64,000 nucleotides of DNA, from contig NZ_JACJHY010000020.1 of assembly GCF_014138625.1 (NCBI RefSeq), forward strand, positions 62,001 to 126,000. Reading direction: 5' to 3'. Source of the DNA: Aminobacter ciceronei. Lineage in GTDB: Bacteria; Pseudomonadota; Alphaproteobacteria; Rhizobiales; Rhizobiaceae. The notes under the pieces are model-generated. The model did no database searches. It was not told the origin of the DNA and saw only the letters and a list, made by a program, of their open reading frames with translations. Shown here one piece after another: positions 1-34,709 of the stretch (positions within the stretch are counted from its first letter, which is position 1; each line of letters begins with the position of its first letter). A program made the translations under genes and the position numbers.

Positions 1-776
1 AAATTGGGCTGGACCGCGTCCTTCAGCAGCACCGCCATGGCGCCATCGGCCTTGAGGTCGCGGGCATAGACGGCCGTCTTGTCGCGGCGATAGGCAACGA
101 TGATGTCGCCCAGGCGCTTCTCGAGATCTTTCAGATCGGTGGCCAGGCACAGGATCGCCATGACTTCGGAAGCAACCGTGATGTCGAAGCCGGCCTCACG
201 CGGAAAACCGTTGGCGACGCCGCCGAGCGAGCAGTTGATCTGGCGCAGCGCCCGGTCGTTCATGTCCATCACCCGGCGCCACACCACGCGGCGGGTGTCG
301 ATGCCGAGCTCGTTGCCCCAGTAGATGTGGTTGTCGATCAGCGCCGACAAAAGATTGTGCGCGGTGGTGATGGCGTGGAAGTCGCCGGTGAAGTGGAGGT
401 TCATGTCCTCCATCGGCACGACCTGGGCATAACCGCCACCCGCAGCACCGCCCTTGACGCCGAAATTCGGCCCGAGCGAGGCTTCACGGATGCAGACGAT
501 GGCCTTCTTGCCGATACGGTTCAAACCGTCACCGAGGCCGACAGTCGTCGTGGTCTTGCCTTCGCCGGCTGGCGTCGGGTTGATCGCGGTGACCAGGATC
601 AGCTTGCCGTCCTTGTTCTTGCGTGCATTGGCAATGAACTCGGCCGAGATCTTCGCCTTGTCGTGGCCATAAGGCAAAAGATGCTCGGTCGGAATGCCGA
701 TCTTGGCGCCGACCTCCTGGATCGGCTTCTTCTTCGCCGCACGCGCGATCTCGATGTCGGTCTTAAACTCGGCCAT
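1..776 (-). CDS. fhs: Formate-tetrahydrofolate ligase, N-terminal part (cut by window edge)
   Basis: The N-terminal 258 residues are present and the rest lies beyond the left edge. The enzyme makes 10-formyl-THF from formate, THF and ATP, or runs in reverse to release formate. The start is the ATG at 776-774, preceded by an AGGCAGG-like ribosome site. The P-loop-like segment [17 protein letters not shown], about residues 68-84, and the following [19 protein letters not shown] are hallmarks of the family. It lies 51 bases downstream of the SulP gene on the same strand, so the two are probably co-transcribed. This links one-carbon oxidation to anion transport and to the divergent PanB-like/MetF-like unit. 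Identity is secure; its role in this cluster is inferred. Confidence 0.95.
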
Positions 777-827
777 GGTCCTGCCTAATCTGTTTTGGTT
801 GGCGTGAAAGTTCGTTGCGAAGCGGGC

Positions 828-2642
828 TCATGCACTCACTGCGACTTCTGACAAAGGTTGGCTCGTTTGTTGGGTTATTGACGCTGGCACTTTCGGGCAC
901 TCAAGAAAAATCCGGTTCCTGCATGCAGCGCAAATGACTGGGTCGAGGTGGCGCACGACACCTGGAATAGCCTCACTCTTGCGGCGAAATACGTGCCCTC
1001 GACCAATTTCCTTCGCTACCCGATACGTGGAAAGCTGTTGACGCAACCGGGGATACTTGACGATGAGATAAAGGCCGCCGCCACGCGCTTTACGTCTTTT
1101 GGCCTCTTCGATGAGAAACTCCGCACCTGAAAGGTCCATACCGATGTTCCCGTCGATGCCCATCACCATATGAGTCTGATGAGGCCGGGTCTGTTCCAGG
1201 CGACGGAACTGTCGTTGTAGCCCCTCCAGTGCTCCGAAATAGAGCGGGCCTTGAAGACGTGAGAAGATTGCCTGCGGGCATTCCGGCAGCTTGGCTCTCT
1301 CGGCATTGGCGAAGCTCCGGTGTGGATTCTTCGGATTGGGAACCCATAACGGCACATCAGTTTGCATGGTCCTGCGCAGGAAGAAGCACAGCGACAGGAT
1401 CACGCCCAAAAATATGGCGAATTCCATCTCCAGGAACAGAACCGCAAGAAAGGTACAGACAAGCACCATGGACTCGGGCGGGCTTGTGCGAAGTACATGG
1501 CTGATCTTTTCGAATTCAACCAGTCGCCATGCAATCAGGATGATGAGGCCGGACATTGCCGGGATAGGCAGGTAGTGCACCAGCGGTGCAATGAATGCTA
1601 TCATCCCGAGCAAAAAAAGTGACGACAATATCGCCGAGAGCGGGGTCCTTGCTCCGCAATCATAATTCAAACCGCTTCGCGTTAGCGAACCAGATCCGGC
1701 ATAAGAAGAAAAAAGCGAACCGACGAGATTTGATAGCCCCTGGCCGATGATCTCCCGGTTCGTGTCGATATGTTGACGCGAGCGTCCTGCAATGGCTCTT
1801 GAGATCGAGACAGTCTGCAGAAGGCCGATTAAAGCGATCGCGAATGACCCCGGCGCCAGCGATCGCAGCTCCTCAGCGGAAAATTCTGGGATGCGAAATG
1901 GTGGGAGGTGGAAGGTTATCGGTTCCACGAATTCAACGCCATGTGCTCGCGCATGCATGAGGTAGGCAACTGCGCCACCAAGTATCAGAGCAATCAGATG
2001 ACTGGGCCACTTTGGCAACAGCCGCCGCAGCAATATCGATGAAACGAGCGTCACCAGAACGACCAAGATCAGGCTGTAGTTTGCCTTAGCGATAAAGACT
2101 AGGGAGTCGAGATTCGACAATCGGTCGTGCTCAAGATTTGTGGTTAGGCCTTCCATGATGGTGGCGATTTGGCTTTGTCCTATCAGGACCGCGGCGCCAG
2201 CGGTAAACCCCATCATCACCGACGGGGAAACAAAGTTCATCAACTGGCCGAGGCGCGCGATTCCAAGCAGGAACTGGAACGCGCCGACAAGAAGGCTGAC
2301 GGTCATGGCGGCTGCTATGAATTCAGCACTTCCGGGCTGATATACAGGACTCAATGTTGCAAACACGACGAGTGAAATGGCTGTGGACGGCCCTGAAATC
2401 TGATGCCATGAGCTCCCATAGAGCGCAGCCACAATCGGAATCACGACGGCGGAGTAGAGCCCATATTCTGGTGGTAGGCCCGCAATTGCGGCGAACGCAA
2501 TGGCCTGGGGCAAAACCACCGCCGCATTGGTGAAGCCTGCGAACGTATCAGCTTGCAGAGTGCGCTTATCGACAAGGCGCATCCAGTCCAGGAATGGAAA
2601 GAGCGACTTCATCCAGCGACGATCCGCAATATTTCGCATCAT
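828..2642 (-). CDS. SulP-family anion permease with C-terminal STAS domain
   Basis: This 604-residue protein has the SulP/SLC26 layout. A hydrophobic transmembrane domain starts around residue 30, with the conserved stretch PQAIAFAAIAGLPPEYGLYS and then ISGPSTAISLV. A soluble C-terminal STAS domain (about residues 460-560) contains the GIDGNIGMDLSGAEFL segment. The family moves sulfate, bicarbonate or other small anions across the inner membrane; the direction and substrate cannot be read from sequence. It is the first gene of a leftward unit whose second gene is fhs. It diverges from the PanB-like/ABC unit across a spacer with two matching palindromes. Together with the TauE/SafE-type exporter in the other unit, this suggests handling of sulfate or sulfite released from an organosulfur compound. 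Confidence 0.9.
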   Translation of the reverse strand: MMRNIADRRWMKSLFPFLDWMRLVDKRTLQADTFAGFTNAAVVLPQAIAFAAIAGLPPEYGLYSAVVIPIVAALYGSSWHQISGPSTAISLVVFATLSPVYQPGSAEFIAAAMTVSLLVGAFQFLLGIARLGQLMNFVSPSVMMGFTAGAAVLIGQSQIATIMEGLTTNLEHDRLSNLDSLVFIAKANYSLILVVLVTLVSSILLRRLLPKWPSHLIALILGGAVAYLMHARAHGVEFVEPITFHLPPFRIPEFSAEELRSLAPGSFAIALIGLLQTVSISRAIAGRSRQHIDTNREIIGQGLSNLVGSLFSSYAGSGSLTRSGLNYDCGARTPLSAILSSLFLLGMIAFIAPLVHYLPIPAMSGLIILIAWRLVEFEKISHVLRTSPPESMVLVCTFLAVLFLEMEFAIFLGVILSLCFFLRRTMQTDVPLWVPNPKNPHRSFANAERAKLPECPQAIFSRLQGPLYFGALEGLQRQFRRLEQTRPHQTHMVMGIDGNIGMDLSGAEFLIEEAKRRKARGGGLYLIVKYPRLRQQLSTYRVAKEIGRGHVFRRKSEAIPGVVRHLDPVICAACRNRIFLECPKVPASITQQTSQPLSEVAVSA

Positions 2643-2817
2643 TCATCCATCGAGCCAAAGCTCAAGCGACCCTTTACCTTCCAAGATCTGGCGACGGGAA
2701 GGAAGGTGGTTCGCGGCAAGTAATGCCGCGGTGTTGCGGTTGAAGCCGACTGCCCGTTATGGGGTCAGACCAGCCTTTCAGTTAGGTTTAACGTTACGTG
2801 GCTCTGGGCACGTCCAC

Positions 2818-2833
2818 TGTCGGCGAGCCGACA
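2818..2833. promoter_or_regulatory. Operator-like palindrome, copy 1 (TGTCGGC-N2-GCCGACA)
   Basis: A perfect inverted repeat of two 7-base arms with a 2-base centre (GA). It lies 175 bases upstream of the SulP start codon. The arms are identical to those of copy 2. The 16-base dyad size suits a CRP/FNR-type dimer, and such a regulator is encoded at 10908-11654. That pairing is inference. Confidence 0.6.
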
Positions 2834-2942
2834 ATCGCAATGATTTTGCCTGAAAGCTTCATGCGGCCGACCGTATGCTCCTGCTGGGGCCATGACGTTG
2901 CGGCGTAATATCTAATGAAAAATTGCAGTCGTATCGTGCTTT

Positions 2943-2958
2943 TGTCGGCGGGCCGACA
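2943..2958. promoter_or_regulatory. Operator-like palindrome, copy 2 (TGTCGGC-N2-GCCGACA)
   Basis: Same 7-base arms as copy 1, with centre GG. It lies 80 bases upstream of the PanB-like start codon and exactly 125 bases from copy 1, about twelve helical turns, so both sites face nearly the same side of the DNA. The position suits control of the rightward unit. Confidence 0.6.
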
Positions 2959-3038
2959 GATGCAACCCGCAACCTGCGTCACCCTACCCCTCACTGAATT
3001 CAGCCAACCTTTGGTCAATCAAGAATGAGGAAGCGGAT

Positions 3039-3926
3039 ATGGATGTGCCTGTTACCAGAAAACGGGTGACCCTCAACAATTTGCACGACAAGAAAAAGCG
3101 CGGCGAGCGGATTACTTCGATCGGCGTCTACGATGCGCCACTCGCCGCCATCGCTGACAAAGTCGGCTTCGATCTACTTGTTATCGGAAACGCGGGTCCA
3201 ATGTCGTTGTTTGGCCATGCCGATCCCACGACGGTCAAATTCGAAGAGCAGCTGTTTATGACCCAGGCGGTCAGCCGCGTCACGAAGTATGGCCTCATCG
3301 TCGCGCACATGCCTTATCTAACTTACCACTCTTCGAAGGAAGATGCGGTTCGTAACGCTGGTCGCCTCGTGGCCGAGGGTGGTGCTCATGCCGTAAAATG
3401 CGAGGGTAACCGTTATACTGCAGAGTATGTCGCTGAGATCGTGCGTGCTGGCATTCCAGTCATGGGTCATATCGGCATGCAGGCGTCGCGCCGCGTAGAA
3501 CAAAGCGGTTTCGGTGTGAAAGGCCGGACTGCCGAGGATGCCCGCAAGATTCTCGATGATGCGGAAGCATTCGTTGAAGCTGGCGTATTCGCATTCATCT
3601 TGGAACAGGTGCCCGCCGAATTGGCCGAGTTCCTCGCCAGTCGCTTGGATGTTCCAGTGATCACGCTAGGCGGCGGCACAAACGCAGACGGCATATACCA
3701 CATCGCAGGCGACGTGGTTGGATACAGTGCCTTCCCTATGCCAAAGAACAGGCGCAGCTTTACTAATGTCCAGCCGCTGCTTGAGGAAGGAATCACAAAA
3801 TACAAGGCCGCCGTTGTCGACGGAAGTTATCCCGCAGAGGGCGACTCGTTTCGAATGAACGAGGGGGAGTTCGAGAAGTTCATGGAGTCGTACGGAAGAA
3901 AAACCAGTCTAAAATCCGTCATTTAG
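3039..3926 (+). CDS. PanB-like (ketopantoate hydroxymethyltransferase family) protein with altered metal site
   Basis: This 295-residue TIM-barrel protein aligns along its length with PanB, which transfers a hydroxymethyl group from methylene-THF to a 2-oxo acid. It keeps the Lys/Glu motif VKCEG (K120, E122), the GHIGM and GFGVKGR segments (143-163), and the catalytic-type glutamate in ILEQVP (E189). The two aspartates that help bind Mg in E. coli PanB (D45 in VGDS, D84 in LADLP) are replaced: IGNAG (N51) and VAHMP (H90). It is therefore unlikely to be a normal pantothenate enzyme. It is the first gene of a rightward unit and lies 23 bases before a NitT-type binding protein. I infer a one-carbon transfer or retro-aldol step on the imported compound. 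The family is well supported; the reaction is unknown. Confidence 0.8.
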   Translation: MDVPVTRKRVTLNNLHDKKKRGERITSIGVYDAPLAAIADKVGFDLLVIGNAGPMSLFGHADPTTVKFEEQLFMTQAVSRVTKYGLIVAHMPYLTYHSSKEDAVRNAGRLVAEGGAHAVKCEGNRYTAEYVAEIVRAGIPVMGHIGMQASRRVEQSGFGVKGRTAEDARKILDDAEAFVEAGVFAFILEQVPAELAEFLASRLDVPVITLGGGTNADGIYHIAGDVVGYSAFPMPKNRRSFTNVQPLLEEGITKYKAAVVDGSYPAEGDSFRMNEGEFEKFMESYGRKTSLKSVI

Positions 3927-3949
3927 TTCTTGTCTTGGGAGGAGACAAA

Positions 3950-5128
3950 ATGAAGAATATAGTTCGCACCTACATTGCTGCAGTCTTGCTGTCAGCCGGC
4001 ATCGCTGGTTCTGAAGCGTTTGCCGGCGGCACGCAGCAATCAAGTTATGAGAAAATCGTTGCGCAGCAAACCCAAGTGGCCGGTGATGCAGTCAACTTGC
4101 GCTCAAACTACTGGCTAGCGTGGACCGGAGCCTGGGACACGGTCGTCATGAAGGAGACGCGTCTGTGGGAGAAGTGGCTGCCTGCCGGCAGCCAGGTCAC
4201 TTGGCAGCGCAACTTGCAAGGCCCCCCGGTTATCACGGATCTCCTGAGCGGTAAGCAGCAGATCGGCTACATCGGTGACAACCCCGCTATTGTGTCGACC
4301 ACCAAGCGCGACATCGCTCCTGTCAATCTGGTAGCCGTAAACACCATCTCGCCGGGGCGTATGTGTGGCCATCTTATTCTCGGAAAGGGCGCGCCTGAGT
4401 TCACCAACTACAAAGACGCCATCAAGTGGCTAGAGGGGAAGACTATCGGCGTGCCCCGGGGAAGCTGTGCTGACCGCCTAGCGCAAGTGATAGTAAAGCA
4501 CGAAGGTATTAACGTGACCTGGCAGCAGATGCAGGCCGAAGTCGTGGTCACCAGCCTGCAAGCCGGAAAGATTGACGCCGCTGCCGTCTACGAGCCGCAT
4601 TCGTCTAAGGCTGTTTTCGACGGCTATGCCAAGTATGCGATCTCGTCCAATCCGTATGGTGAACTAGATGCCAATGCCGTCGTAATGCGGCAGGACTTCA
4701 TCGAATCCAATCGAGATGTCGCTAAAGCCTGGCTCAAGGCGAACATTGAAGCTCTGTATTTTCTCAAGGAACACCCAATCGAGACGATCGAGATGGTGAA
4801 GAAGGAGCTGCCTGGCTACACCAGAGAAAACCTCTGGCACGCGATCTACGGCAATCTGCCAAAGGAAACTGGCGCAAGCGACACCGTGCTCGTAGGCGCT
4901 ATGAGTTTCACCAAGGATGTCAGAGACCTTCTGCAGCGCGGGCACGACTTCCTGCACGAAATCAAAGTCGTGGTCGAACCGCAATTCGATCCCAAGGCCA
5001 TCCAAGATGATCTCGTTACCGAGGCATTCAAGGAACTTGGCCTCGACCCCAGCCAACCTCTCTTCGTCATCAAGGATGGTGACATGGGCACCAATCCTTT
5101 CAAGGGTGACGAGCTGGTCAAAAGCTAA
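3950..5128 (+). CDS. NitT/TauT/SsuA-type periplasmic substrate-binding protein
   Basis: This 392-residue protein has an N-terminal signal peptide ending near residue 26 (AGSEAFAGG). It shows the type-2 periplasmic binding fold of the nitrate/sulfonate/taurine family, with stretches such as SGKQQIGYIGDNPAI and WLEGKTIGVPRGSCADRLAQ. The ATG at 3950 is chosen because GGAGGAGAC sits just upstream. The family captures sulfonates, taurine, nitrate, aliphatic sulfonates or thiamine precursors, so the ligand cannot be named. It works with the two permeases and two ATPases downstream. The sulfite- and sulfate-type exporters in the cluster favour a sulfur-containing ligand, which is inference. Confidence 0.88.
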   Translation: MKNIVRTYIAAVLLSAGIAGSEAFAGGTQQSSYEKIVAQQTQVAGDAVNLRSNYWLAWTGAWDTVVMKETRLWEKWLPAGSQVTWQRNLQGPPVITDLLSGKQQIGYIGDNPAIVSTTKRDIAPVNLVAVNTISPGRMCGHLILGKGAPEFTNYKDAIKWLEGKTIGVPRGSCADRLAQVIVKHEGINVTWQQMQAEVVVTSLQAGKIDAAAVYEPHSSKAVFDGYAKYAISSNPYGELDANAVVMRQDFIESNRDVAKAWLKANIEALYFLKEHPIETIEMVKKELPGYTRENLWHAIYGNLPKETGASDTVLVGAMSFTKDVRDLLQRGHDFLHEIKVVVEPQFDPKAIQDDLVTEAFKELGLDPSQPLFVIKDGDMGTNPFKGDELVKS

Positions 5129-5181
5129 GGCACCTGGCGGAAAATGGCGGCGAGATCAACTGTCGATCTCGCCAGCCTGAG

Positions 5182-6147
5182 ATGGGAACAATCGAGATGC
5201 AAACGCAAACAGTTACTCAGCTCGCCGCGACTGGCGCGAGCCCCAGCAGTATCATCTTTTCTGTCGCCGGTGCGGACAACGGAAACCGCGAAGCAGCGCT
5301 GATTGAAGCCTTTCGACAGAAAAACGGAAGCAGTCAGGGCAAGGTTGGACGGCTTCTCAGAAGCTCTTCCCTGCGGTATGGCGCACTGGGCTTTGCAGTG
5401 TTCCTGGTCGCTTGGTATTTGGCTACGGATCTGCTGAAATTGCCTCGCTTCAACTTCCTGCCGTCACCGGTTCTGGTCTTTTCAGAGTGGATGAGTAGGG
5501 AACCGACGCATGGCGTATCGATATTCACGCCGATCTACTATGAGCACATCCTCGTCAGCATGCGCCGGGTTTTTCTGGCGTTCGCGATTGCGGTGCTTGC
5601 CGGCGTACCGCTCGGCATCCTCCTTGGTTGGAGCCGAGCGTTTCATAATTTCTTCTTTCCAATTGTCGAACTTCTACGCCCGATCCCGCCACTAGCCTGG
5701 GTGCCGTTCGCCGTACTCATCCTGCCCGGTGTTGAGACACCCGTCGTCTTCGTGACGCTGCTCGCAGCTTTCTTCGCGACGGTTCTGAACACTGTCCTCG
5801 GTGTCTGGTCCATCAATGACGACTATTTCCGAGCGGCAAGCTGTCTCGGCTACACTAGGTTGGACGTGCTCACCCGCGTCATTGTCCCGGGGTCGATGCC
5901 GTTCGTATTCACTGGCTTGCAGATTGCCATGGGCGTGTCCTGGTTCTCACTGGTTGGCGGCGAGATGATTGCCGGCAGATCCGGCTTGGGTTTTCTGATC
6001 TTCGACGCCTACATGCAGGTCGCATTGCCCAACATCGTCATCGGTATGATTACGCTCGGCATCCTCGGATACGCATCCAGCGCAGCGATCCGGCGCTTGG
6101 GCGACCGGCTGATGGCTTGGCAGTCCAAGGGAAGGAATTCACAATGA
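5182..6147 (+). CDS. NitT/SsuC-type ABC permease 1
   Basis: A 321-residue inner-membrane protein of the binding-protein-dependent transport family. A hydrophilic head of about 65 residues precedes the first membrane segment (ALGFAVFLVAWYLATDLL). The core has the RPIPPLAWVPFAVLILPG segment typical of SsuC/TauC permeases, then SWFSLVGGEMIAGRSGLGFL, the conserved loop that contacts the ATPase. An alternative start is the ATG at 5197. It overlaps the second permease by four bases (ATGA), so the two form a coupled heterodimeric channel. The long head is unusual for SsuC-type permeases, which normally start close to the first helix. Confidence 0.88.
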   Translation: MGTIEMQTQTVTQLAATGASPSSIIFSVAGADNGNREAALIEAFRQKNGSSQGKVGRLLRSSSLRYGALGFAVFLVAWYLATDLLKLPRFNFLPSPVLVFSEWMSREPTHGVSIFTPIYYEHILVSMRRVFLAFAIAVLAGVPLGILLGWSRAFHNFFFPIVELLRPIPPLAWVPFAVLILPGVETPVVFVTLLAAFFATVLNTVLGVWSINDDYFRAASCLGYTRLDVLTRVIVPGSMPFVFTGLQIAMGVSWFSLVGGEMIAGRSGLGFLIFDAYMQVALPNIVIGMITLGILGYASSAAIRRLGDRLMAWQSKGRNSQ

Positions 6148-6941
6148 CCAGGCTTTGGGACTCTAAACTTTTCAGTTTGGCGCACTGGTCACGGCGCTTG
6201 CGCTCACCGGTTCTGTGGCAAGGATTGGCCGGTATAGTCACCTTCTTTGCCGTCTGGCAGATCGCAAGATGGCTGGGGTGGATGGCGATTATCCCCTCTC
6301 CGATTGAGCTTGCGGAGGGTATTCCTGAGGAGATTGCACAGACAGGCTACTGGCAGAATTGGATCGACAGTAGCCGCAGGGTTTTCGTCGGCTTCGGCAT
6401 AGCCGCGATTTCAGCCATCGTAATCGGCGTCCTCATGGGTATGAGCACCAGGCTGCGCGCTGCCATCTTCCCACTATTCGAGGTTATGCGCCCGGTCCCG
6501 CCTCTCGCCTGGCTCCCGCTCGCCATTCTCTTCTGGCCGAGCTCTGAGATGACGATGGCGTTCCTGACCTTCATCGGTGCCTTCTTTCCGATCCTCCTGA
6601 ATGTGCTGGCAGGTATAGACAAGGTTGACCGTCGCTATGTCCAAGCAGCTTTATCGCTAGGGTCCAGCCGCGGCGCCTTGTTCCGGCGAATTCTGGTTCC
6701 AGGCGCGCTACCATCGCTATTCACGGGTCTCGCTATTGCCATCGGCATCACTTGGGAAGTGGTGATCGCGGCCGAGATGGCGTCGGGCACTAACGGTCTC
6801 GGCTACATGACGTGGGATTCGTATATGACGCATTCGATGATTGGAATTGTGCTCGGCATGCTGAGCATCGGACTGGCAGGCATGGCCTGCAGTTGGATGA
6901 TGCGCTGGGTCGGCCAAATCGCCACCCCCTGGCAGAAATAA
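6144..6941 (+). CDS. NitT/SsuC-type ABC permease 2
   Basis: A 265-residue permease related to its upstream neighbour. The RPVPPLAWLPLAILFWPS segment is followed by the ATPase-contact loop ITWEVVIAAEMASGTNGLGYM. The start is the ATG at 6144, with GGGAAGG upstream, overlapping the end of permease 1. Most NitT-type systems use a homodimer of one permease. Two different permeases followed by two different ATPases suggest a fully heterodimeric transporter. Confidence 0.88.
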   Translation: MTRLWDSKLFSLAHWSRRLRSPVLWQGLAGIVTFFAVWQIARWLGWMAIIPSPIELAEGIPEEIAQTGYWQNWIDSSRRVFVGFGIAAISAIVIGVLMGMSTRLRAAIFPLFEVMRPVPPLAWLPLAILFWPSSEMTMAFLTFIGAFFPILLNVLAGIDKVDRRYVQAALSLGSSRGALFRRILVPGALPSLFTGLAIAIGITWEVVIAAEMASGTNGLGYMTWDSYMTHSMIGIVLGMLSIGLAGMACSWMMRWVGQIATPWQK

Positions 6942-6953
6942 GGAGGCGGGAAG

Positions 6954-8219
6954 ATGTTGAGCACTCATGAACGTGTCTCGCTGTTGCGCGCGAACATTCA
7001 TCTCGGACGGGGGCCAGCCAAGTTGCTGGAAGAGCTTGCTGAAGCCGCCGAAGAACTGAGCTTTGCCAAAGGCGAGGTGGTCTTCAGCCGGCGTGATCCG
7101 TCAATCTACTTCTATGTTCTGGTCAACGGGCATGTGTCCCACCCGGAAGTTCAGGCGGCCGAGGAGCAGTTTGCCATCGCTAGGGAAACCACGGCACCAG
7201 GCCAGTTATTTGGCTGGGGTGCAGCGGTGGAAGGCATGCCGATCCGTATTATTTCGGCGCGATGCGACGAGCCGACCAGGGTTCTCGCGATCGACGGTAA
7301 GTGGTTCCAGGCACGCTGCCGGGCTCATGGCGAGCCCGGGTTGAACACGTTGCAGGGTCTGGTCCGTGCGTTTGCCGGCCATGAGCGCAATATCGTGGGG
7401 CGCCGTGGCTGGCTGTCCATCCGTAGCGTGCAGAAGGTCTACGATCCTTTCGGCAAGTCGGTGGTAGCTGTCGATAGTTGCTCGGTCGAGATTCGCCCGG
7501 GCGAATTCTGCGCCATTGTCGGCCCATCGGGTTGCGGCAAGTCAACATTGCTGAACGCTGTAGCCGGCTTTGACACGATTACCTCCGGAGAAATCTATCT
7601 GGATGGCCAATGCATCAACTCCGCCACTATGAAAGCCCAACCCGGCCCAGATCGCATCGTTGTTTTCCAACACGGAGCGCTGTTTCCGTGGGCGACAGTA
7701 TTGGAGAACATGATCCGTGGGCCGATCGTACAAAAGAAGATGAACAAGCATCAGGCGATCCAGAAGGCGCGTGAACTGCTCGCTCGGGTCGGCCTGAGCA
7801 AAGTCGAAAACCTCTATCCCACGGATATGTCATCCGGCATGTGTCGTCGTGTCGAGATCGTGCGAGCGTTGATGAATGACCCGCGTGTCATCCTACTGGA
7901 CGAGCCATTCCGGGGCCTCGACGCGCTAACCAAGACGGTTGTCCATAACGCGCTTCTGGAAATTTACGAGATGGAGAGGAAGACGATCCTCTTCATTACC
8001 CACGATCTTGAAGAGGCGATTTACCTCGCCGACCGTGTCTTGGTCATGACGACGAGACCCGGCAGCATTAAGCAAACGATTTTCGTTGATTTGCCCAGGC
8101 CGCGGCCGACTGAACTCTTGGGTCAGCCGGAATTCCTCCAGCTGAAGGAGAATGCGATCGGCGCTGTTCATGAAGAAGCGGTGAAAGCCTTCGAGGCTGG
8201 TGAAAGGGAGATGGCATAA
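6954..8219 (+). CDS. ABC ATPase fused to an N-terminal CRP-like sensor domain
   Basis: This 421-residue protein joins two modules. Residues about 15-145 resemble the cyclic-nucleotide-binding jelly roll of CRP-like proteins (LSFAKGEVVFSRRDPSIYFYVLVNGHV, written here in part: SFAKGEVVF, YFYVLVNGH). Residues 152-421 are a NitT-type ABC ATPase with Walker A GPSGCGKST (190-198), Q239, Walker B VILLDEP (312-318) and H-loop His350. The signature is MSSGM (292-296) in place of LSGGQ, so it is degenerate. It overlaps the next ATPase at TAATG. The partner has an intact signature but no H-loop histidine, so the pair would form one good and one poor ATP site. The sensor domain may gate transport; its ligand is unknown. 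Confidence 0.85.
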   Translation: MLSTHERVSLLRANIHLGRGPAKLLEELAEAAEELSFAKGEVVFSRRDPSIYFYVLVNGHVSHPEVQAAEEQFAIARETTAPGQLFGWGAAVEGMPIRIISARCDEPTRVLAIDGKWFQARCRAHGEPGLNTLQGLVRAFAGHERNIVGRRGWLSIRSVQKVYDPFGKSVVAVDSCSVEIRPGEFCAIVGPSGCGKSTLLNAVAGFDTITSGEIYLDGQCINSATMKAQPGPDRIVVFQHGALFPWATVLENMIRGPIVQKKMNKHQAIQKARELLARVGLSKVENLYPTDMSSGMCRRVEIVRALMNDPRVILLDEPFRGLDALTKTVVHNALLEIYEMERKTILFITHDLEEAIYLADRVLVMTTRPGSIKQTIFVDLPRPRPTELLGQPEFLQLKENAIGAVHEEAVKAFEAGEREMA

Positions 8220-9037
8220 TGACAAAATCTTCAGCCACATCAGGTGGCCATTGTGTCGTTGATTCCGTTGGCAAGGTTTATTCGTCATCTGGGAACGATC
8301 TCGAAATCGTCCTCAAGGATTGCAGCTTCGAAGTCCCGGCCGGAAGTCTGACTGTTCTTCTCGGACCGTCGGGCTGCGGCAAGAGCACGATGGTAAAGCT
8401 AATCGCTGGGTACGAAACCCCGACGCTGGGGCAAGTCCGACTAGACGGCGTTCCGGTTAATGGTCCGAATGCCGATCGCATCGTCGTCTTCCAGGAAACG
8501 GCGCTGTTCCCCTGGATGACTTTGCAGGAAAATGTTGCTTACGGGCCGGTTCAAGCGGGCGAGGCCAAAGCTGCTGCCGAACGAGAAGCAGGCGCGTTAT
8601 TGCGCACCGTCGGACTTGCCGGTTTCGAGCATCGCTACCCAACTCAGATCTCAGGCGGCATGCAGCGACGTGCAGAAGTTGCCCGTGCTCTGATCACCCG
8701 ACCCAAATTGATGTTACTCGATGAGCCATTCCGCGGCCTAGATCATATGTCTCGCGGACTGATGCAGGAATACTACTTGAAGCTCTTCGATGAGCATCGC
8801 ATGACGACCTTGTTTGTTACGTCGGAAATTGATGAAGCGATCTTCCTGGCGGATCGGCTAGTCGTTCTCAGCTACAAGCCGACAGTTGTGAAGACCGTGA
8901 TCGATGTGGATTTGCCGCGACCGCGCAACTTCCAGATGCTGACCTCTGCCACCTATGGCCGGATCAAGGAACAGGCGCTCGATCTCCTCTACAACGAGGC
9001 CCTGAAAGCCTTTGATCAAACACCCGCTGCGGCTTAG
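8219..9037 (+). CDS. NitT-type ABC ATPase, partner subunit lacking the H-loop histidine
   Basis: A 272-residue ATPase with Walker A GPSGCGKST (49-57), Q92, signature ISGGM (144-148) and Walker B LMLLDEP (164-170). The H-loop, normally THD, reads TSE with Ser202 in the histidine position. The tail after residue 225 (DLPRPRNFQML) is shared with the upstream ATPase and is typical of NitT-type subunits. Its start overlaps the stop of the upstream ATPase, so the two are translationally coupled. The mirror-image defects of the two subunits (signature in one, H-loop in the other) point to an asymmetric heterodimer. Confidence 0.88.
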   Translation: MTKSSATSGGHCVVDSVGKVYSSSGNDLEIVLKDCSFEVPAGSLTVLLGPSGCGKSTMVKLIAGYETPTLGQVRLDGVPVNGPNADRIVVFQETALFPWMTLQENVAYGPVQAGEAKAAAEREAGALLRTVGLAGFEHRYPTQISGGMQRRAEVARALITRPKLMLLDEPFRGLDHMSRGLMQEYYLKLFDEHRMTTLFVTSEIDEAIFLADRLVVLSYKPTVVKTVIDVDLPRPRNFQMLTSATYGRIKEQALDLLYNEALKAFDQTPAAA

Positions 9038-9048
9038 GGGCAAGATAC

Positions 9049-9978
9049 ATGAAGATCATTAAAAGCTTGTTTGAACGGAAGTCTGCCGCCGAACCTACAG
9101 CGCCTGCCGACATTTCTGGACTCCTCAATGGGTTTTCGGTCGAGGTTCTGCCTAAGACAGTCGGTAGACTCCTGGAACGCTCAGAAGGGCTTCCTGCCCG
9201 CAGTCGAGTGTATATCGCTTACATCCAAGGGACTGATATTGTCGACATGGTAAGTACAGCTCGGCGCCTAACGGATGCCGGATTTGAGCCTATGCCGCAT
9301 ATTCCTGCACGGCTGGTGAAGGATCGGCAAACGCTTTCCGACTGGGTCGCCCGTTACAAGAATGAGGCAGGAGTTCATCAAGCCCTAGTGATTGGCGGCG
9401 GCGTTGATCATCCGGTGGGCGAATTCAGTTCCTCCATAGAGTTGATGGCGACTGGGGTGTTCCAAAAGGCAGGGTTCGATCGTCTGCATGTGGCAGGGCA
9501 TCCCGAGGGCAATCGTGACATCGACCCAGATGGGACGGACAAAAATACGCTTGCTGCACTGAGATGGAAGCAGGAGTTTTCCGAACAGACTGGGGTGGAT
9601 ATGGCAATTGTCACACAATTCTCATTCGACAGCCAACCGGTGATCGAATGGGCACAACGATTGTCCGCGGAAGGCATCCGACTTCCGATCCACATTGGAG
9701 TGCCTGGACCTGCAAAGTTGCAGACCTTGATCCGCTACGCTCTCCATTGCGGTATCGGACCGAGCATTCGCGTGCTTCACCGGCGAGCTGCGGATGTGAC
9801 GCGTATGATGTTACCCTTTACGCCGGAAGAGTTCCTGAATGGCATTGCTCATCACAAAGCTGCAAATCCAGGAAGCAAAATCGCCGTCTCACATTTCTTC
9901 CCACTTGGCGGCATTGATAAGGTCCTTGAATGGAACGCCCGCTTTACGCGGGAAGTGGGCCTCCCGGACGTTTGTTGA
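9049..9978 (+). CDS. Methylenetetrahydrofolate reductase-like (MetF-family) protein
   Basis: A 309-residue FAD TIM-barrel protein of the MetF family, which interconverts methylene-THF and methyl-THF. Seen are the N-terminal catalytic-type glutamate in FSVEVLP (E32), HIPARLVKD (84-92), VAGHPEGN, the IVTQFSFD segment and the HIGVPGPAKL loop. The segment that carries a folate-contacting aspartate in E. coli MetF (RGD) reads GGG here, around residues 116-118, with an Asp two residues later. It follows the ATPase by 11 bases in the same unit. MetF-like paralogues near transporters often serve demethylation pathways, so I infer handling of a methyl or methylene group taken from the imported compound rather than methionine synthesis. 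Confidence 0.82.
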   Translation: MKIIKSLFERKSAAEPTAPADISGLLNGFSVEVLPKTVGRLLERSEGLPARSRVYIAYIQGTDIVDMVSTARRLTDAGFEPMPHIPARLVKDRQTLSDWVARYKNEAGVHQALVIGGGVDHPVGEFSSSIELMATGVFQKAGFDRLHVAGHPEGNRDIDPDGTDKNTLAALRWKQEFSEQTGVDMAIVTQFSFDSQPVIEWAQRLSAEGIRLPIHIGVPGPAKLQTLIRYALHCGIGPSIRVLHRRAADVTRMMLPFTPEEFLNGIAHHKAANPGSKIAVSHFFPLGGIDKVLEWNARFTREVGLPDVC

Positions 9979-10064
9979 ATCCCTGGCCTCAAGCTGGGCC
10001 AACGGCCAAGTAGTCGGACACGTTTATTTTAAAGCAGCAGTGAACCTACGGCGAAAATGTCATC

Positions 10065-10799
10065 TTGTTCCAGAATCTGATGAACTTGCCAATCGCAAGC
10101 GTGGTAGCCATCGTAGCGGTGGCCGGCCTAGTACGCGGCGTTACTGGTTTTGGCGGGGCGATGTTCATGGCCCCGCCACTCAGTTTGTTGGTCGGGCCCG
10201 TCCAAGCTGTCTTGTACGCCTTATTTCTGGAGTCGATCGCTGTACTGGCGATTATCCGTTCGATTTGGCCTCGGCTGAACCCTCGTACGCTTGCCTTCGT
10301 CGGAATCCCGGCCTTGTTGAGCGCCCCTGTCGGTGGTCTCCTGCTGACTATTCTCGACGCGAATATCATCAGATATTTGATCGCGACTACTGTGGTGATA
10401 TTCAGCCTGCTCCTCATGGTCGGGTTTCGCTACGATGGGCCGCCTCGTGGCACGACTTCAGCGATTCTGGGAGGTTTCAGTGGAGTTTTGTTCGGCGCGA
10501 CCAGCATGGGAGGCCCTCCCGTCATCCTGTATCTTCTCTCAGGCCCCGACCATCACGATGTAACCCGCGCCAATCTCGTTGCATATGTTAGCGCCGTCTC
10601 GGCGGCAGCACTTGTACTACCCTGGTATGGGGGTGCACTAACGGCAGCAGTCACCCTCAACGCGCTCGCATTGGCCGCGCCTTACCTGCTCGGAATATGG
10701 CTCGGCAGCCACTGCTTCTCGTTCTTGAGCGAAAAACTTTTCCGCCGCACAGTGCTAGGATTTATGCTATTGAGTGGATTGGTCGCGCTTTTAGGCTAG
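10065..10799 (+). CDS. TauE/SafE-family membrane exporter
   Basis: A small membrane protein of about 240 residues with seven to eight hydrophobic segments. It has the family's opening motif GLVRGVTGFGGAMFMAPPL and the second half-repeat GGFSGVLFGATSMGGPPVIL. Members export sulfite, sulfoacetate or related anions; known ones sit in taurine and sulfonate catabolic clusters. The start could be TTG at 10065 or the in-frame ATG at 10080; neither has a strong ribosome site. It lies 86 bases after the MetF-like gene, so it may have its own promoter. It supports release of sulfite-like products by this cluster. Confidence 0.83.
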   Translation: MFQNLMNLPIASVVAIVAVAGLVRGVTGFGGAMFMAPPLSLLVGPVQAVLYALFLESIAVLAIIRSIWPRLNPRTLAFVGIPALLSAPVGGLLLTILDANIIRYLIATTVVIFSLLLMVGFRYDGPPRGTTSAILGGFSGVLFGATSMGGPPVILYLLSGPDHHDVTRANLVAYVSAVSAAALVLPWYGGALTAAVTLNALALAAPYLLGIWLGSHCFSFLSEKLFRRTVLGFMLLSGLVALLG

Positions 10800-10855
10800 T
10801 AGAGCTTGCGTTCGTGGTTGTTATGCAGCGCGACTTGGATTGGATTGCATGAGAT

Positions 10856-10868
10856 GCATTCGGAATGC
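10856..10868. promoter_or_regulatory. Short palindrome upstream of the CRP-like regulator
   Basis: GCATTC-G-GAATGC is a perfect inverted repeat about 40 bases before the chosen start of the regulator. It could be an operator, but its arms do not match those at 2818 and 2943. Confidence 0.25.
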
Positions 10869-10907
10869 TGTTGTCTGCAGCGTTCTAGTGAAGTTCGAGT
10901 GGCGTGG

Positions 10908-11654
10908 ATGAGTCAAGCTGTTGTGCACTCGGATTTCGACAACGAAGCACCATGGTATTGGCGCCCGGTCAATCTTTTCGACGGCACGCCATCCGAGACG
11001 CGGCGAGAATTCTTTAATTGTGCGAAAATGCGCGGCTTCGCGCGAGGTGAGCATGTTTGCCTTGCCGACGAACTAGCTGACCATCTGTATTATGTTGTCG
11101 CCGGCTTAGTTAAAGTTGAGCACATCACAGCCACTGGAAATGTCACTATATTCTGGTTCTGCGTCCCCGGTGATCTATTCGGTGCGGGCGGCATTTCTGG
11201 CAGCCTTAGGCAGGGTGTCTATAGCAGGGCCGTGGAGGATTCTCAAATTGCGCTATTGCGACGCACGCAATTTGAAGAATTGGTCGGGAACCATCCGAGG
11301 CTGGCTCTCAATGTGATCAAACTCATGGGTGGTCGTCTAAGGCTGGCATGCGATGCGATGGCCGAGGTAACCCAACGAGCAAATCTGAGGGTGGGCCGTC
11401 TGCTCCTGCGTTTGGCAGAGAGTTGTGGACAGTGGACGAATAAGAATGAAGTGGCGATCAGGGCCCGCATTTCACAACAGGAAATGGCCGACATGGTCGG
11501 ATGCACGCGTCAGACAGTTACCGAGGTCTTGCAGAGCTTGTCTCGGAGCGGAATCATTAGGATAGAGAAGAGAACCATTCACATCCCAAGCGTGGAGCGG
11601 CTGCGGACTTGCGTTGAAGATGCCGAAATGACTGACGGCGGTAGTATACTGTAG
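10908..11654 (+). CDS. CRP/FNR-family transcriptional regulator
   Basis: A 248-residue regulator from the ATG at 10908. Upstream in-frame starts (TTG 10806, ATG 10854) would add residues that do not resemble the family. The N-terminal half is a cyclic-nucleotide-binding-type barrel (FARGEHVCLADELADHLYYV, FCVPGDLFGAGG). The C-terminal winged helix has ISQQEMADMVGCTRQTVTEV, about residues 186-205, where TRQTV is the recognition helix. It does not show the cysteine set of an FNR iron-sulfur sensor. Being the last gene of the metabolic cluster, it is the best candidate to bind the twin palindromes at 2818 and 2943, though that is inference. Confidence 0.85.
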   Translation: MSQAVVHSDFDNEAPWYWRPVNLFDGTPSETRREFFNCAKMRGFARGEHVCLADELADHLYYVVAGLVKVEHITATGNVTIFWFCVPGDLFGAGGISGSLRQGVYSRAVEDSQIALLRRTQFEELVGNHPRLALNVIKLMGGRLRLACDAMAEVTQRANLRVGRLLLRLAESCGQWTNKNEVAIRARISQQEMADMVGCTRQTVTEVLQSLSRSGIIRIEKRTIHIPSVERLRTCVEDAEMTDGGSIL

Positions 11655-12126: not shown

Positions 12127-13329
12127 ATGCATAAACATGATCCAGCTCGTCAAATCAGCTTTATTCAGCAAGCCCTTTCTCAGAACCGAAAGCCGATCGG
12201 CTTCTTCCTCGGCGCAGGCTGCCCCCTGTCGATCCGCGTCAATCACCGCGAGGAGGACGGGAAAACCGTTACCGACCCGCTGATCTGGGATGTTGCCGGA
12301 TTGACGAAGGTAATCGCCAAGTCACTTTCGAGTGGAAAACCCGAAAATCCCAAAAGCTGGGACAAAATAGTTCAGATCGTTAAAGACGATGGCGGCGAAA
12401 GCGGCAATATTGAGCTCCTGCTCAGCCGCATTCGCGTATTCGCGAGCGTTGCCGGCAGCGGGAATGTGCGCGGTCTTACAAGGGCCGAACTCACCGCGCT
12501 CGATACTGAGGTCTGCAAGGTCATCTCACAAGAGGTCACTCGCTCGCTTCCGACCAGGGACACCCCCTATCATAATCTCGCGATCTGGAGCCGTTCGATC
12601 CGCCGAGAGCGGCCCGTTCATCTCTTTACTACTAACTATGACCTGCTGATGGAGCAGGCGCTTGAGGAAAGTTCGGCGCCCTATTTCGACGGTTTTATCG
12701 GTGCGCGAAAGGCGTTCTTCGATTTGGGCGCGGTCGAGGATGAGGGCCTGTTGCCTCCGCGGTGGACCCGGCTCTGGAAGATCCACGGCTCGCTCAACTG
12801 GCGCCTTGAAAATGAGACCGACGTTGTTCGAACCGACGAAAAGACCGACAAGCAGAGCTATCTGATCTACCCGTCGCACCTCAAATATGACCAGAGCCGC
12901 AAGATGCCCTATCTAGCGATGCTCGACCGTCTCAAGGCTTTCCTGCTCGCTCCATCCGCGCTGCTGTTCATTTGCGGCTATTCTTTCGCTGACGAGCATA
13001 TCAACGACGTGATCTGCCGTAGCCTCGAGGCCAATCCGACCGCACATGTCTTTGCCTGCGTTTTCGGCGAACTAGAGTCAGATAACTACAAACTCGCCCG
13101 CCAGTGCGCGCTGTCGAATCCCAATCTCAGCTTGTTAGGTTTCGACAAAGCTATCATTGGTCGCACACCGGGCGATTGGACTGCCGACGGATCGGATGAT
13201 CTTTTGCTTCCGCCCAGCATTCTCGTGAGAGATGGCGACAATGTTACCTTGCGGCTCGGAGATTTCGCAGCACTCGGCACTTTGTTGCGTGGCCTCTCCG
13301 GTGAAGGTGTGAGCGATGTTGCGGCCTGA
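12127..13329 (+). CDS. SIR2-like NAD-consuming defence effector
   Basis: A 400-residue SIR2-domain protein. The nucleotide-binding motif FFLGAGCPLS (26-35), TTNYDLLMEQ (168-177, with N170 and D172) and KIHGSLNW (218-225, with H220) match the SIR2 fold of anti-phage proteins. These degrade NAD when infection is sensed. It overlaps the next gene, a HerA-type ATPase, by 14 bases. SIR2 next to HerA is the established SIR2-HerA (Nezha) defence pair, in which the two proteins form a large complex. GGGGGC upstream of the ATG supports the start. Unlike the simple two-gene systems, two more genes follow here in tight succession. Confidence 0.88.
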   Translation: MHKHDPARQISFIQQALSQNRKPIGFFLGAGCPLSIRVNHREEDGKTVTDPLIWDVAGLTKVIAKSLSSGKPENPKSWDKIVQIVKDDGGESGNIELLLSRIRVFASVAGSGNVRGLTRAELTALDTEVCKVISQEVTRSLPTRDTPYHNLAIWSRSIRRERPVHLFTTNYDLLMEQALEESSAPYFDGFIGARKAFFDLGAVEDEGLLPPRWTRLWKIHGSLNWRLENETDVVRTDEKTDKQSYLIYPSHLKYDQSRKMPYLAMLDRLKAFLLAPSALLFICGYSFADEHINDVICRSLEANPTAHVFACVFGELESDNYKLARQCALSNPNLSLLGFDKAIIGRTPGDWTADGSDDLLLPPSILVRDGDNVTLRLGDFAALGTLLRGLSGEGVSDVAA

Positions 13330-15220
13330 TCGCGCTGATCGGGCGACCGTCATCGGAACGGTTCAAGACGTCAGCGGCACGTCGGTCAGCGTGACCCTGA
13401 CCTCGGACCGATTTTCGGGCCTGAGCTTTGTCCACGGCCAAGGTCATAAGATCGGTCAGATCGGCAGCTTCGTCAAAATCCCGATCGGCTATGTCGATCT
13501 CTATGGGATCGTCTCGCAGGTCGGTGCCAGTGCGGTGCCGGAAAAGGCGGCGCTCTCCATGCCCAATGGGCTGCGCTGGATGACAGTCCAGCTGATCGGC
13601 GAAGGCTATCGGACTGGCAGATTTCAACGCGGAATCTCGCAGTACCCAACCTTCGAGGATGAAGTTCATCTTGTCTCCGAGGCCGACCTCCAGGCGATCT
13701 ATGGACGATCGGACAAGCAGAACCATCTGGTCCGCGTCGGCCATGTGGCGGGAAGCGAGTCGATCGACGCGCTGGTCGACGTGAACAAGCTCGTCACGCG
13801 CCACAGCGCTGTGGTGGGAACGACCGGCTCGGGCAAGTCGACGACGGTGGCCGGACTCCTCAACGTCCTGTCGGATGAGAGCCGCTTCCCCTCCGCGCGA
13901 ATCGTCGTCCTTGACCTTCACGGAGAATATGCCAAGGCGCTTGGCGACCGTGCGAACATCTTTAAGATCAGCCCGGATGTCCGCAACATCAACGAGCACC
14001 GGCTGTGCATCCCATTCTGGGCGCTGAGCTTCGACGAACTCATGCGGGTGACCTTCGGAAGCCTTCCGCCCGATGGAAAAGCGCGCAACATCATCCTCGA
14101 GCAGATACTCGAAGCTAAGATCGCAAGCCTGACGGCGCAGCCGATCGCCGGTGTCGATCCCGCCAGCATCACCGCCGATAGCCCGGTGCCTTTCTCGCTG
14201 AACAAACTCTGGCATGACCTCTATTGCCGCGAGTTCGGAACCTATCTCAGCGCCAGCGGCGCGAACCCGTCAGATCAGGCGACCTGGGCCTATGAATGCG
14301 ATCCTTTGGGCGCGAAGATCGTCGGGGATGCGCAGGCCGCGGTTCCACCGCGCTTTCGCAAGGTCAAGAATGTCGCCTCCGATCCGGAGAAGATAAATTG
14401 GCTCCCCGACGTCCTCAACATCCGGGGGCCGCTTGAGGCGCTCGGCGCCCGGCTTCGCGTCGCGCGCTACGACTTCCTGCTGAAGGCCGGCGATTGGCAT
14501 CCCGAGCTCGACGGCACGACGACTAAGACGCTCGCCGAGCTCGTCGGGCAATGGCTCGGCAGTGACAAGCCGATCACGATCCTCGATCTGTCGGGCATTC
14601 CCTCGACGGTGACGAACGACATCATCGGCAGCATCTTGCGTGTCCTTTACGATGGTCTCTTTTGGGCGCGGAACCTCTCGGAAGGCGGGCGCGAACGCCC
14701 GCTGCTCGTCGTGATGGAGGAGGCGCACAGCTACCTTGGCGACGATGGCAGCAGCGCGGCCTCGATCGCGACCCAGCGCATTGTCAAGGAAGGGCGCAAA
14801 TATGGGATCGGCGCGATGATCGTTAGCCAGCGCCCGGCCGAGATCAATCCCACGATCCTGTCACAATGCGGGACCTTCTTTGCGATGCGGTTGAGCAACG
14901 CCACCGACCGCTCACATGTGACCAGCGCTCTCTCCGACAACCTCGAAGGTTTGACGAGCATGTTGCCGGTGCTACGCACCGGCGAAGCCATCATCCTCGG
15001 CGAAGCGGTAAGGCTCCCCATGCGGACAATGATCCAGGCGCCACCTCGCGATCGTCGCCCCGACAGTCAGGATCCACTGATCTGTGACGAAGCCGCGCCC
15101 GAGGATTCGATGACGCCAGGCGGTTGGAACCTGCAAATGCACATCGCCGCGGACTATCGCTATTTTGTCGAGACTTGGCTCCAGCAGAACCCGGTCCCCA
15201 CCCCGCCCAAGAAGGAGTAA
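13316..15220 (+). CDS. HerA-family hexameric ATPase of the SIR2-HerA system
   Basis: A 634-residue HerA/FtsK-type motor ATPase. The N-terminal HAS-barrel region (about 1-130) precedes Walker A GTTGSGKSTT (168-177) and the RIVVLDLHGEYAKAL strand. Walker B LLVVMEEAHSYLG comes near residue 463, followed by GAMIVSQRPAEINPTILSQC with the sensor and arginine-finger regions. HerA rings drive or scaffold nuclease or SIR2 partners. The start overlaps the SIR2 gene, so both are made together. The next gene starts five bases after the stop. Confidence 0.9.
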   Translation: MLRPDRADRATVIGTVQDVSGTSVSVTLTSDRFSGLSFVHGQGHKIGQIGSFVKIPIGYVDLYGIVSQVGASAVPEKAALSMPNGLRWMTVQLIGEGYRTGRFQRGISQYPTFEDEVHLVSEADLQAIYGRSDKQNHLVRVGHVAGSESIDALVDVNKLVTRHSAVVGTTGSGKSTTVAGLLNVLSDESRFPSARIVVLDLHGEYAKALGDRANIFKISPDVRNINEHRLCIPFWALSFDELMRVTFGSLPPDGKARNIILEQILEAKIASLTAQPIAGVDPASITADSPVPFSLNKLWHDLYCREFGTYLSASGANPSDQATWAYECDPLGAKIVGDAQAAVPPRFRKVKNVASDPEKINWLPDVLNIRGPLEALGARLRVARYDFLLKAGDWHPELDGTTTKTLAELVGQWLGSDKPITILDLSGIPSTVTNDIIGSILRVLYDGLFWARNLSEGGRERPLLVVMEEAHSYLGDDGSSAASIATQRIVKEGRKYGIGAMIVSQRPAEINPTILSQCGTFFAMRLSNATDRSHVTSALSDNLEGLTSMLPVLRTGEAIILGEAVRLPMRTMIQAPPRDRRPDSQDPLICDEAAPEDSMTPGGWNLQMHIAADYRYFVETWLQQNPVPTPPKKE

Positions 15221-19984: not shown

Positions 19985-20439
19985 GTGGCACACCGGTCAT
20001 CCGCGACCAATACTATTAGCGTCTCGACCTATTTTAGTCCGCACCCGCCCACGAGTTACACAGTGATTTTTCGTCAGACATGCCGACAGCAGCCCTCGCT
20101 CAAATGATTATCCGAGAGGCCCCACGCTATCATTGTGTCCTAGACACCTCGCGTGCGACGGCGTGTCCCCGCTCGACATCCACACGTCGCCGTGGTGGCT
20201 AGAACAAGATCAGTCCAAGGGTGATCTTCAAAAGATGATCGGACGCGTTCTCGGGGGTAACGTCAGGACGAAACAAGGAACGGGCATACTAACGGCTTGG
20301 TCTTAGAGCGAGGCTGAAGTGGGCTGAGGCGCGGGAGCGTTCCGCACCTCTCCTTGGGGCGGTTGGGGCACCTGCCGGCAGGGTGCAGAAACAGACTAAC
20401 CTCGAGTGGCAGGTTACTACTAGGTCCTTCCCAAATTCA
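19985..20439. other. Intergenic stretch upstream of the helicase gene
   Basis: No gene is seen in this 455-base stretch. It must hold the promoter of the leftward helicase gene. It ends at the right copy of the 21-bp repeat. Confidence 0.5.
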
Positions 20440-34705: not shown

Positions 34706-34709
34706 GCCC

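Follow-up and report, generated by a model that had tools for sequence, protein, structure and literature searches.

A recurrent gene cluster of Aminobacter ciceronei with a PanB-like candidate for tetrahydrofolate-dependent demethylation

What is the role of a gene cluster which combines folate-linked one-carbon (C1) genes, an ABC importer, two anion transporters and a relative of ketopantoate hydroxymethyltransferase (PanB)? The cluster occupies positions 1-11654 of the stretch of 64,000 nucleotides from Aminobacter ciceronei that we analyzed (the window, G000:C20:62001-126000, where G000 is the 6.77-Mb genome of this organism). A sequence-only reading of the same DNA had listed the genes and had proposed that an organosulfur compound donates a C1 group to tetrahydrofolate (THF). 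The gene list is correct, the named genes having matches in Pfam, NCBIfam or the PDB; the NitT/SsuA-type transporter is present but bigger than listed, as it comprises one binding protein, two permeases and two ATPases. We find the cluster's link to C1 and sulfur metabolism well supported. With little better than even confidence we further suggest that its genes are regulated together and serve to break down a small methylated sulfur oxyanion, with the PanB-like protein as demethylase, methyl sulfate being the likeliest substrate and methanesulfonate the second.

The cluster consists of two divergent units facing each other across a gap of 396 bp. The leftward unit runs from SulP to formate-THF ligase (Fhs), FolD and a LuxR-type response regulator, the last two lying past the left edge of the window (L005), both on the same strand as Fhs; FolD matches PF02882 (2e-65). 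The rightward unit has the order PanB-like protein, binding protein, two permeases, an ATPase with a cyclic-nucleotide-binding domain, second ATPase, MetF-like protein, TauE and Crp. The SulP protein scores 294.5 bits with PF00916 (gathering 23.2) and 331.8 bits with TIGR00815, which is under the cut-off of 380.45. The TauE/SafE protein reaches 87.9 bits with PF01925 (gathering 32.6), and the binding protein 104.6 bits with the SsuA aliphatic sulfonate model TIGR01728, under its cut-off of 163.5.

The PanB-like protein is about 30% identical to PanB and keeps its fold: the AlphaFold2 model (mean pLDDT 87.9) matches 1oy0 in Foldseek with E 6.9e-26 and a model-based TM of 0.95 by target length. 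It scores under both NCBIfam panB cut-offs (203 bits against 207.55 for TIGR00222, 232.9 bits against 272 for PRK00311). Residues D45, S46 and D84 of E. coli PanB, found in all 14 true-PanB rows compared, correspond to N51, A52 and H90, and N/A/H stands at positions 45/46/84 (E. coli numbering) in 9/9 full window-type rows. K112, E114 and E181 (E189 in the window protein) are retained in the window type. We take positions 45, 84 and 114 to be the metal (Mg) ligands of PanB and 181 to be the catalytic residue. A true panB adjoins panC on contig C9 of the same genome (PF02548 342.8 bits; PF02569 321.6 bits), and pantothenate therefore need not depend on the PanB-like gene. For the sub-cut-off scores, the loss of Asp45 and Asp84 and the true panBC elsewhere we reject an ordinary PanB, which the protein resembles in fold, identity and the retained Lys112, Glu114 and Glu181.

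The phylogeny drew on 101 distinct PanB-family sequences, of which 48 rows, with E. coli PanB among them, were used; the true PanBs (L034-L102) were thinned to every fifth and the frame-broken L031 copy was left out. The window protein falls within a clade of 29 rows (99/99) which splits into the sister clades A and B. Clade A (13 rows, 100/98) contains the window type, drawn from Alpha-, Beta- and Gammaproteobacteria, two G781 copies, the second G375 copy and a copy on contig C15 of the Aminobacter genome. Clade B (16 rows, 96/93) has 14 rows with D/T/D at the three positions and two Bacillota rows with D/S/D. Among readable clade-A rows D45 is present in 0/12, D84 in 0/13 and E181 in 13/13. 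The four rows of clade A outside the window type read S/P/N, N/S/T, P/S/H and gap/gap/H, and some are also altered at 112 and 114. The exact N-A-H pattern does not form one unbroken clade, and some rows are long-branched and of unsure placement, chiefly L002 and L004. Wider searches at E<=1e-66 returned only the Aminobacter genome and the already known G043 among 398 genomes of the phylum, and two more clade-B genomes among 385 genomes of the class, and thus added no clade-A loci for an out-of-sample test. Plasmid spread was considered and rejected: PanB-like matches at 1e-40 occur in 106 of 72,556 plasmid records, all below 60% identity. The cluster ATPase has no match at 1e-90 among these records, Aminobacter plasmid pSR3 holds only a 371-bp piece (92.5% identity, 4% of the query), and no relative was found in viral contigs.

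The association of the genes goes beyond chance, as it recurs in other genomes, in several of them with an operator-like palindrome. The earlier reading had staked itself on co-occurrence and co-regulation, and the genes do recur together elsewhere and look co-regulated. The genes for the PanB-like protein, binding protein, permease, cyclic-nucleotide-domain ATPase and second ATPase have the identical order in L023, L025 and L026, and in L031 with broken reading frames; the cluster's gene order is conserved across several bacterial families. Relatives of the binding protein, 57-74% identical, are present in L023, L024 (cut), L025 and L026. The cyclic-nucleotide-binding domain is fused to the importer ATPase in 4/4 window-type clusters tested (window, L023, L025, L026) and is absent from the single methanesulfonate (msm)-type ATPase tested.

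We counted gene families within 9 kb of the PanB-family gene in 13 clade-A loci, 13 clade-B loci and a control of 69 true-PanB loci (L034-L102). Duplicate locus copies and the short G793 contig were left out, the Aminobacter genome and G375 each count twice in clade A, and the mean flanks were 15.7 kb for clade A and 12.2 kb for the control. Methylenetetrahydrofolate reductase (MTHFR) genes occur near 7/13 clade-A, 0/13 clade-B and 4/69 control loci; for SulP the figures are 4/13, 0/13 and 0/69. The Fisher tests (clade A against control 1.1e-4 for MTHFR and 4.1e-4 for SulP; clade A against clade B 0.005 for MTHFR) give rough p values, the loci being related. In the same order of groups the counts are 9/13, 0/13 and 1/69 for Crp/Fnr, 8/13, 9/13 and 2/69 for the NitT permease, 0/13, 9/13 and 0/69 for the sulfite dehydrogenases SoxC or SorA, 0/13, 5/13 and 0/69 for MsmA, and 1/13, 4/13 and 1/69 for Fhs. 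The GcvT profile is absent from all 13 clade-A loci, the window included, and present in 6/13 clade-B and 2/69 control loci. PurU is found in 2/13 (L030 and L031, the latter also with FolD), 0/13 and 0/69.

Co-regulation is suggested by the palindrome TGTCG-N6-CGACA. Two sites lie between the SulP and PanB-like genes (2818 and 2943), and the palindrome is also found upstream of the PanB-like gene in L023, L024, L025 and L026. In L023 (Tabrizicola soli), where SulP is arranged differently, a further copy lies 43 bp ahead of the SulP reading frame. In 12 upstream stretches, each of 400 bp and without that of the truncated L131, six sites in five loci compare with 0.0042 expected. The loci with the palindrome are exactly the five with an orthologous Crp, the relatives being 35-51% identical to the protein of the window. 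The palindrome is absent from the upstream regions of L028, L136 (the L029 locus), L030 and L006, whose Crp-type proteins share 17-23% identity with that of the window. We infer that the Crp protein binds the palindrome as its putative operator. Across the Tabrizicola genome there are three sites, two of which are in the cluster (before PanB-like and SulP), against one for the reversed-pattern control. The Aminobacter genome has 14 sites, two of which are in the cluster, against six for the control, a background too high for assigning more genes to the regulon. Three unrelated sites were seen among other loci (L105, L143, L144).

The MetF-like protein has no Pfam match at 0.001 and matches models of canonical MTHFR marginally (3-4e-4); among solved structures the MTHFR 7xg9 (2.7e-48) is far better than the canonical MTHFRs (2.7e-4), so that a canonical MetF for methionine is disfavoured. 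We take 7xg9 to be the enzyme of Sphingobium SYK-6. A demethylase-coupled MTHFR family is, to judge from the title, reportedly the subject of Yu et al. 2025 (Commun. Biol. 8, 323). Different MTHFR types occupy the same place in clade A: a short 7xg9-like form (window and C15, and by similarity G781), a form fused to DUF5981 (L025, L030) and one split from DUF5981 (L026, L031). We argue from this that methyl-THF (CH3-THF) would be the product or the substrate of the PanB-like protein. According to an excerpt of a review, the SYK-6 MTHFR subfamily oxidises CH3-THF and partners with a THF-dependent demethylase (PMC13001107). The window cluster is like these couples in its 7xg9-like protein and in Fhs and FolD, which complete the route to formate; it is unlike them in having a PanB-fold protein in place of a GcvT-fold demethylase. 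The SYK-6 demethylases LigM and DesA are presumably GcvT-related, a relation weakly supported by the match of their NCBIfam models to a GcvT-like protein. In chloromethane (cmu) demethylation, too, the methyl group goes to THF and MetF-type oxidation follows. The same is described for the glycine betaine (mtg) genes and metF2 in an extract of PMC12478193. Both systems use cobalamin proteins, and no cobalamin-binding family was matched among the proteins of the window cluster.

Several further loci hold related genes. On contig C15 of the Aminobacter genome (L006, 7511-10720) a second PanB-like gene (S45/P46/N84/H112) is divergent from a second MetF-like gene, together with a gene like S-adenosylmethionine methyltransferases (PF08241) and a Crp-type regulator. 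In G781 (L129, 10694-17952) an uninterrupted series of genes, one MetF-like, two PanB-like, the permease and ATPase of an ABC transporter and TauE, makes up an independent variant of the cluster. In L030 (2613-6792) another PanB-like gene (D45/A46/A84/E112) comes after TRAP transporter genes (DctP, PF03480), near the clade-A gene. Two further MetF-like paralogs of Aminobacter are in L011 (C18) and L012 (C31); one is flanked by an amidohydrolase-family gene on one side and a FolD-like gene on the other, and the second adjoins a regulator whose closest likeness is to GbdR, known from choline metabolism.

The sister clade strengthens the link to sulfur. Most clade-B loci sit in methanesulfonate clusters, with varying sets of an MsmA-type Rieske oxygenase, SoxC, TauE, a GcvT-like protein, Fhs and FolD around them. 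Both Rieske oxygenases checked (L103, L104) have the spacer CXH-X26-CXXH, and SoxC of L105 matches TIGR04555 with 558.5 bits. The 26-residue spacer is the published mark of methanesulfonate monooxygenase (MSAMO; PMC4433239), and Table 1 of that paper lists a 3-methyl-2-oxobutanoate hydroxymethyltransferase of the Filomicrobium msm region under 'C1-moiety transfer'. We suggest that hydroxymethanesulfonate could give up its hydroxymethyl group to THF through the clade-B PanB. The Bacillota clade-B loci L032 and L033 have none of the counted families within 9 kb; in L032 a gene for formylmethanofuran-tetrahydromethanopterin formyltransferase (TIGR03119, above cut-off) lies 2.3 kb from the clade-B PanB, a C1 setting.

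We searched 23 genomes for MSAMO with MsmA of G018 as query (E<=1e-60). A match was found in 14/14 clade-B genomes (12 in which no clade-A gene was found; G791 and G862 with both) and in 2/9 clade-A-only genomes (G861, G863; Fisher 1.5e-4), and not in G000, G317, G375, G831, G781, G860 and G864. The nine are genomes with no clade-B gene known, four of which, reached through loci, were not searched for clade B. As seven of these nine are without an MSAMO match, the clade-A route appears independent of the monooxygenase. In 12/14 clade-B genomes the PanB-family gene and the monooxygenase gene are on one contig, 2-13 kb apart. The best match in the Aminobacter genome is 30% identical over residues 24-222 (E 6.9e-17), with none at 1e-60, and the methanesulfonate pathway proper is thus ruled out for this genome.

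The window cluster shares with the methanesulfonate region of Filomicrobium (msmABCD, msmEFGH and neighbours; PMC4433239) a related ABC transporter, a PanB-family gene, a TauE-family exporter and, near part of the loci, C1-THF genes. It differs in having no MsmABCD and no SoxC/SorA, in Crp in place of a LysR regulator, and in an MTHFR gene, SulP and a PanB of the sister clade with altered metal site. The msm-type transporter is related to that of the window by 59% identity in the ATPase, 36-54% in the permeases (one partial) and 32% in the binding protein; ATPases of other NitT transporters in Hyphomicrobium loci are 36-38% identical. In G862 a complete methanesulfonate cluster directly adjoins a complete window-type cluster, which ties both to like chemistry.

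How could the cluster work? The ABC transporter would import a methylated sulfur oxyanion, and the PanB-like protein with its altered metal site would move the methyl group to THF, no oxygenase being involved. The MetF-like protein would oxidise CH3-THF to methylene-THF (CH2-THF), and FolD and Fhs would carry the C1 unit to formate; Fhs working in reverse would make ATP. SulP and TauE would expel the freed sulfate or sulfite. What we observe is the gene content, its recurrence, the common upstream palindrome, the altered residues and the kinship with methanesulfonate clusters; the methyl transfer, each enzyme step, its direction and the substrate are what we infer. The earlier logic of a C1 group passed to THF holds, and its organosulfur link is strengthened by the sister PanB clade in methanesulfonate clusters and by the recurring SulP and TauE genes. 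It had left the donor step to either the PanB-like or the MetF-like protein; the latter more likely oxidises CH3-THF after the demethylation, so that among the proteins seen in the cluster the PanB-like one alone is left as a candidate for the C1 transfer. It had likewise allowed a methyl or a hydroxymethyl group, of which methyl fits better, given that lost metal ligands and MTHFR neighbours are found in clade A only.

Which compound donates the methyl group? We prefer methyl sulfate because no sulfite dehydrogenase is found within 9 kb of clade A, because SulP, of a sulfate-transporter family, recurs and is preceded by the palindrome in Tabrizicola, and because sulfate is a good leaving group. 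A further reason is that Hyphomicrobium species are said to use methylsulfate for growth (PMC7996495), and two Hyphomicrobium loci (L028, L029) carry the PanB-like gene. Near the Hyphomicrobium gene there are also a flavin reductase gene and, in L028, a CysB-family regulator (407.1 bits, cut-off 402). Methanesulfonate itself might instead be demethylated directly, its methyl moving to THF without oxygen and sulfite leaving via TauE, for which the closeness of the msm-type ATPase (59% against 36-38%), the position of clade B in methanesulfonate clusters, the adjoining clusters of G862 and the presence of TauE would speak. We consider this main rival rather unlikely, since alkyl sulfonates, by general chemistry, have in sulfite a poor leaving group, and a sulfite dehydrogenase lies near 0/13 clade-A loci against 9/13 clade-B loci, with SulP in four instead.

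A PanB-like protein working at the formaldehyde level would form CH2-THF by taking up a hydroxymethyl group, with hydroxymethanesulfonate as one conceivable donor, and the MetF-like protein would serve methionine synthesis only. Hydroxymethyl transfer is the ancestral PanB chemistry, and clade B, which keeps the metal ligands, would suit the monooxygenase product; it is in clade A only that the ligands are lost and that MTHFR adjoins (7/13 against 0/13), and an assimilatory MetF would hardly be swapped for other MTHFR types at the same place, which makes this reading improbable. Quite improbable, in our view, is the same THF-demethylation scheme with a sulfur-free methylated compound. NitT-type binding proteins accept varied ligands, and the PanB-like/MetF-like pair on C15 has another transporter and no TauE or SulP within 9 kb; the recurrent SulP and TauE, the palindrome before SulP in Tabrizicola, the msm relatives, and the CysB-family regulator and flavin reductase near the Hyphomicrobium gene all point back to sulfur. 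That ordinary genes merely happen to neighbour a PanB paralog is hardly credible: MTHFR is found near 4/69 true-PanB loci as well, but the conserved order in several bacterial families, the common palindrome, the lost metal ligands and the true panBC elsewhere argue against it.

A number of points weigh against demethylation of methyl sulfate by the PanB-like protein. We know of no PanB-fold methyltransferase. The clade-A rows L002, L119 and L126 deviate from the window type at more active-site positions, and to judge from these residues clade A may not share a single reaction. Older reports have methyl sulfate degraded in Agrobacterium and Hyphomicrobium via an oxygenase or a sulfatase, which would speak against a single route. 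SulP is near just 4/13 clade-A loci (p 0.096 against clade B) and may import sulfate, and TauE is commoner near clade B (3/13 in A, 11/13 in B, 0/69 in the control). FolD, near 1/13, 2/13 and 7/69 loci, is not enriched at clade A over the control, that of the window lying outside the counted stretch. Six of the 13 clade-A loci have no MTHFR within 9 kb, of which four (L023, L028, L029, L131) are uncut and two (L024, L027) are truncated at the end of a contig. The family profiles were partly built from counted loci, which favours clades A and B over the control. The full msm cluster adjacent to the window-type cluster of G862, whose SoxC is 9.2 kb from the PanB-like gene, would also suit methanesulfonate as substrate.

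If confirmed as a demethylase, the PanB-like protein would represent a novel class of such enzymes. The known THF-linked demethylations use, to our knowledge, GcvT-related demethylases or cobalamin proteins, and a PanB-fold enzyme would be a third solution. DmdA is described as related to GcvT. Among the matches listed in open-licence PubMed Central literature there is neither a PanB-type demethylase or this gene set nor genes for growth on methyl sulfate. The pathway logic of THF demethylation, MetF oxidation and formate is known; the proposed first-step enzyme and the use of sulfur oxyanions are not described among the matches listed. The PanB-like gene in Hyphomicrobium makes the question of the genes for growth on methyl sulfate testable, and our analysis suggests a role for the PanB-family gene located within 13 kb of the monooxygenase gene in 12/14 clade-B genomes. 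Tentatively, and with somewhat less than even confidence, we envisage a family of THF methyltransferases that derives from PanB, uses neither cobalamin nor oxygen and acts on sulfur oxyanions, namely methyl sulfate and conceivably methanesulfonate too, beside a sister family handing the hydroxymethyl group of the MSAMO product directly to THF: one fold for two C1 oxidation levels, split by the loss of the metal site.

Table 1. Genes and putative operators of the cluster, in window positions
Feature	Position	Strand	Match
Fhs, formate-THF ligase, N-terminal 258 aa, remainder left of window	3..776	-	PF01268 2.2e-125
SulP-family anion transporter, includes STAS domain, 51 bp ahead of Fhs	828..2642	-	PF00916 1.3e-87, PF01740 4.5e-7
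Palindrome TGTCGGC-GA-GCCGACA between divergent units, putative operator	2818..2833	.	
Second palindrome TGTCGGC-GG-GCCGACA, 81 bp before PanB-like start, putative operator	2943..2958	.	
PanB-like protein, candidate THF-dependent demethylase	3039..3926	+	PF02548 1.6e-73
SsuA/NitT-type substrate-binding protein	3935..5128	+	
ABC permease A	5182..6147	+	PF00528 2e-22
ABC permease B	6117..6941	+	PF00528 6.3e-22
ABC ATPase with N-terminal cyclic-nucleotide-binding domain	6954..8219	+	
Second ABC ATPase	8219..9037	+	PF00005 5.3e-33
MetF-like protein, closest solved structure 7xg9	9049..9978	+	E 2.7e-48
TauE/SafE-family exporter	10065..10799	+	PF01925 1.1e-24
Crp/Fnr-family regulator	10806..11654	+	PF13545 and PF00027

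The window has no tRNAs and no RNA families at gathering score. Directly after the cluster (12127-15220) overlapping genes for SIR2 (PDLC04094, 1.3e-129) and HerA (PDLC04105, 2.2e-153) are likely a SIR2-HerA defence pair, and at 16637-19993 on the minus strand there is an open reading frame of 1118 aa that weakly matches type IV restriction and PbeA. A conjugative transfer region extends from 30659 to 44953, with an RlxS-like relaxase (8.5e-168, under cut-off); a 15-kb query across the region aligns over 82% of its length, at 81.9% identity, with a Mesorhizobium ciceri plasmid that has annotated TraG and Trb genes. At 45701-47181, again on the minus strand, an autoinducer synthase gene (PF00765, 2.7e-24) adjoins a LuxR-type autoinducer-binding regulator.

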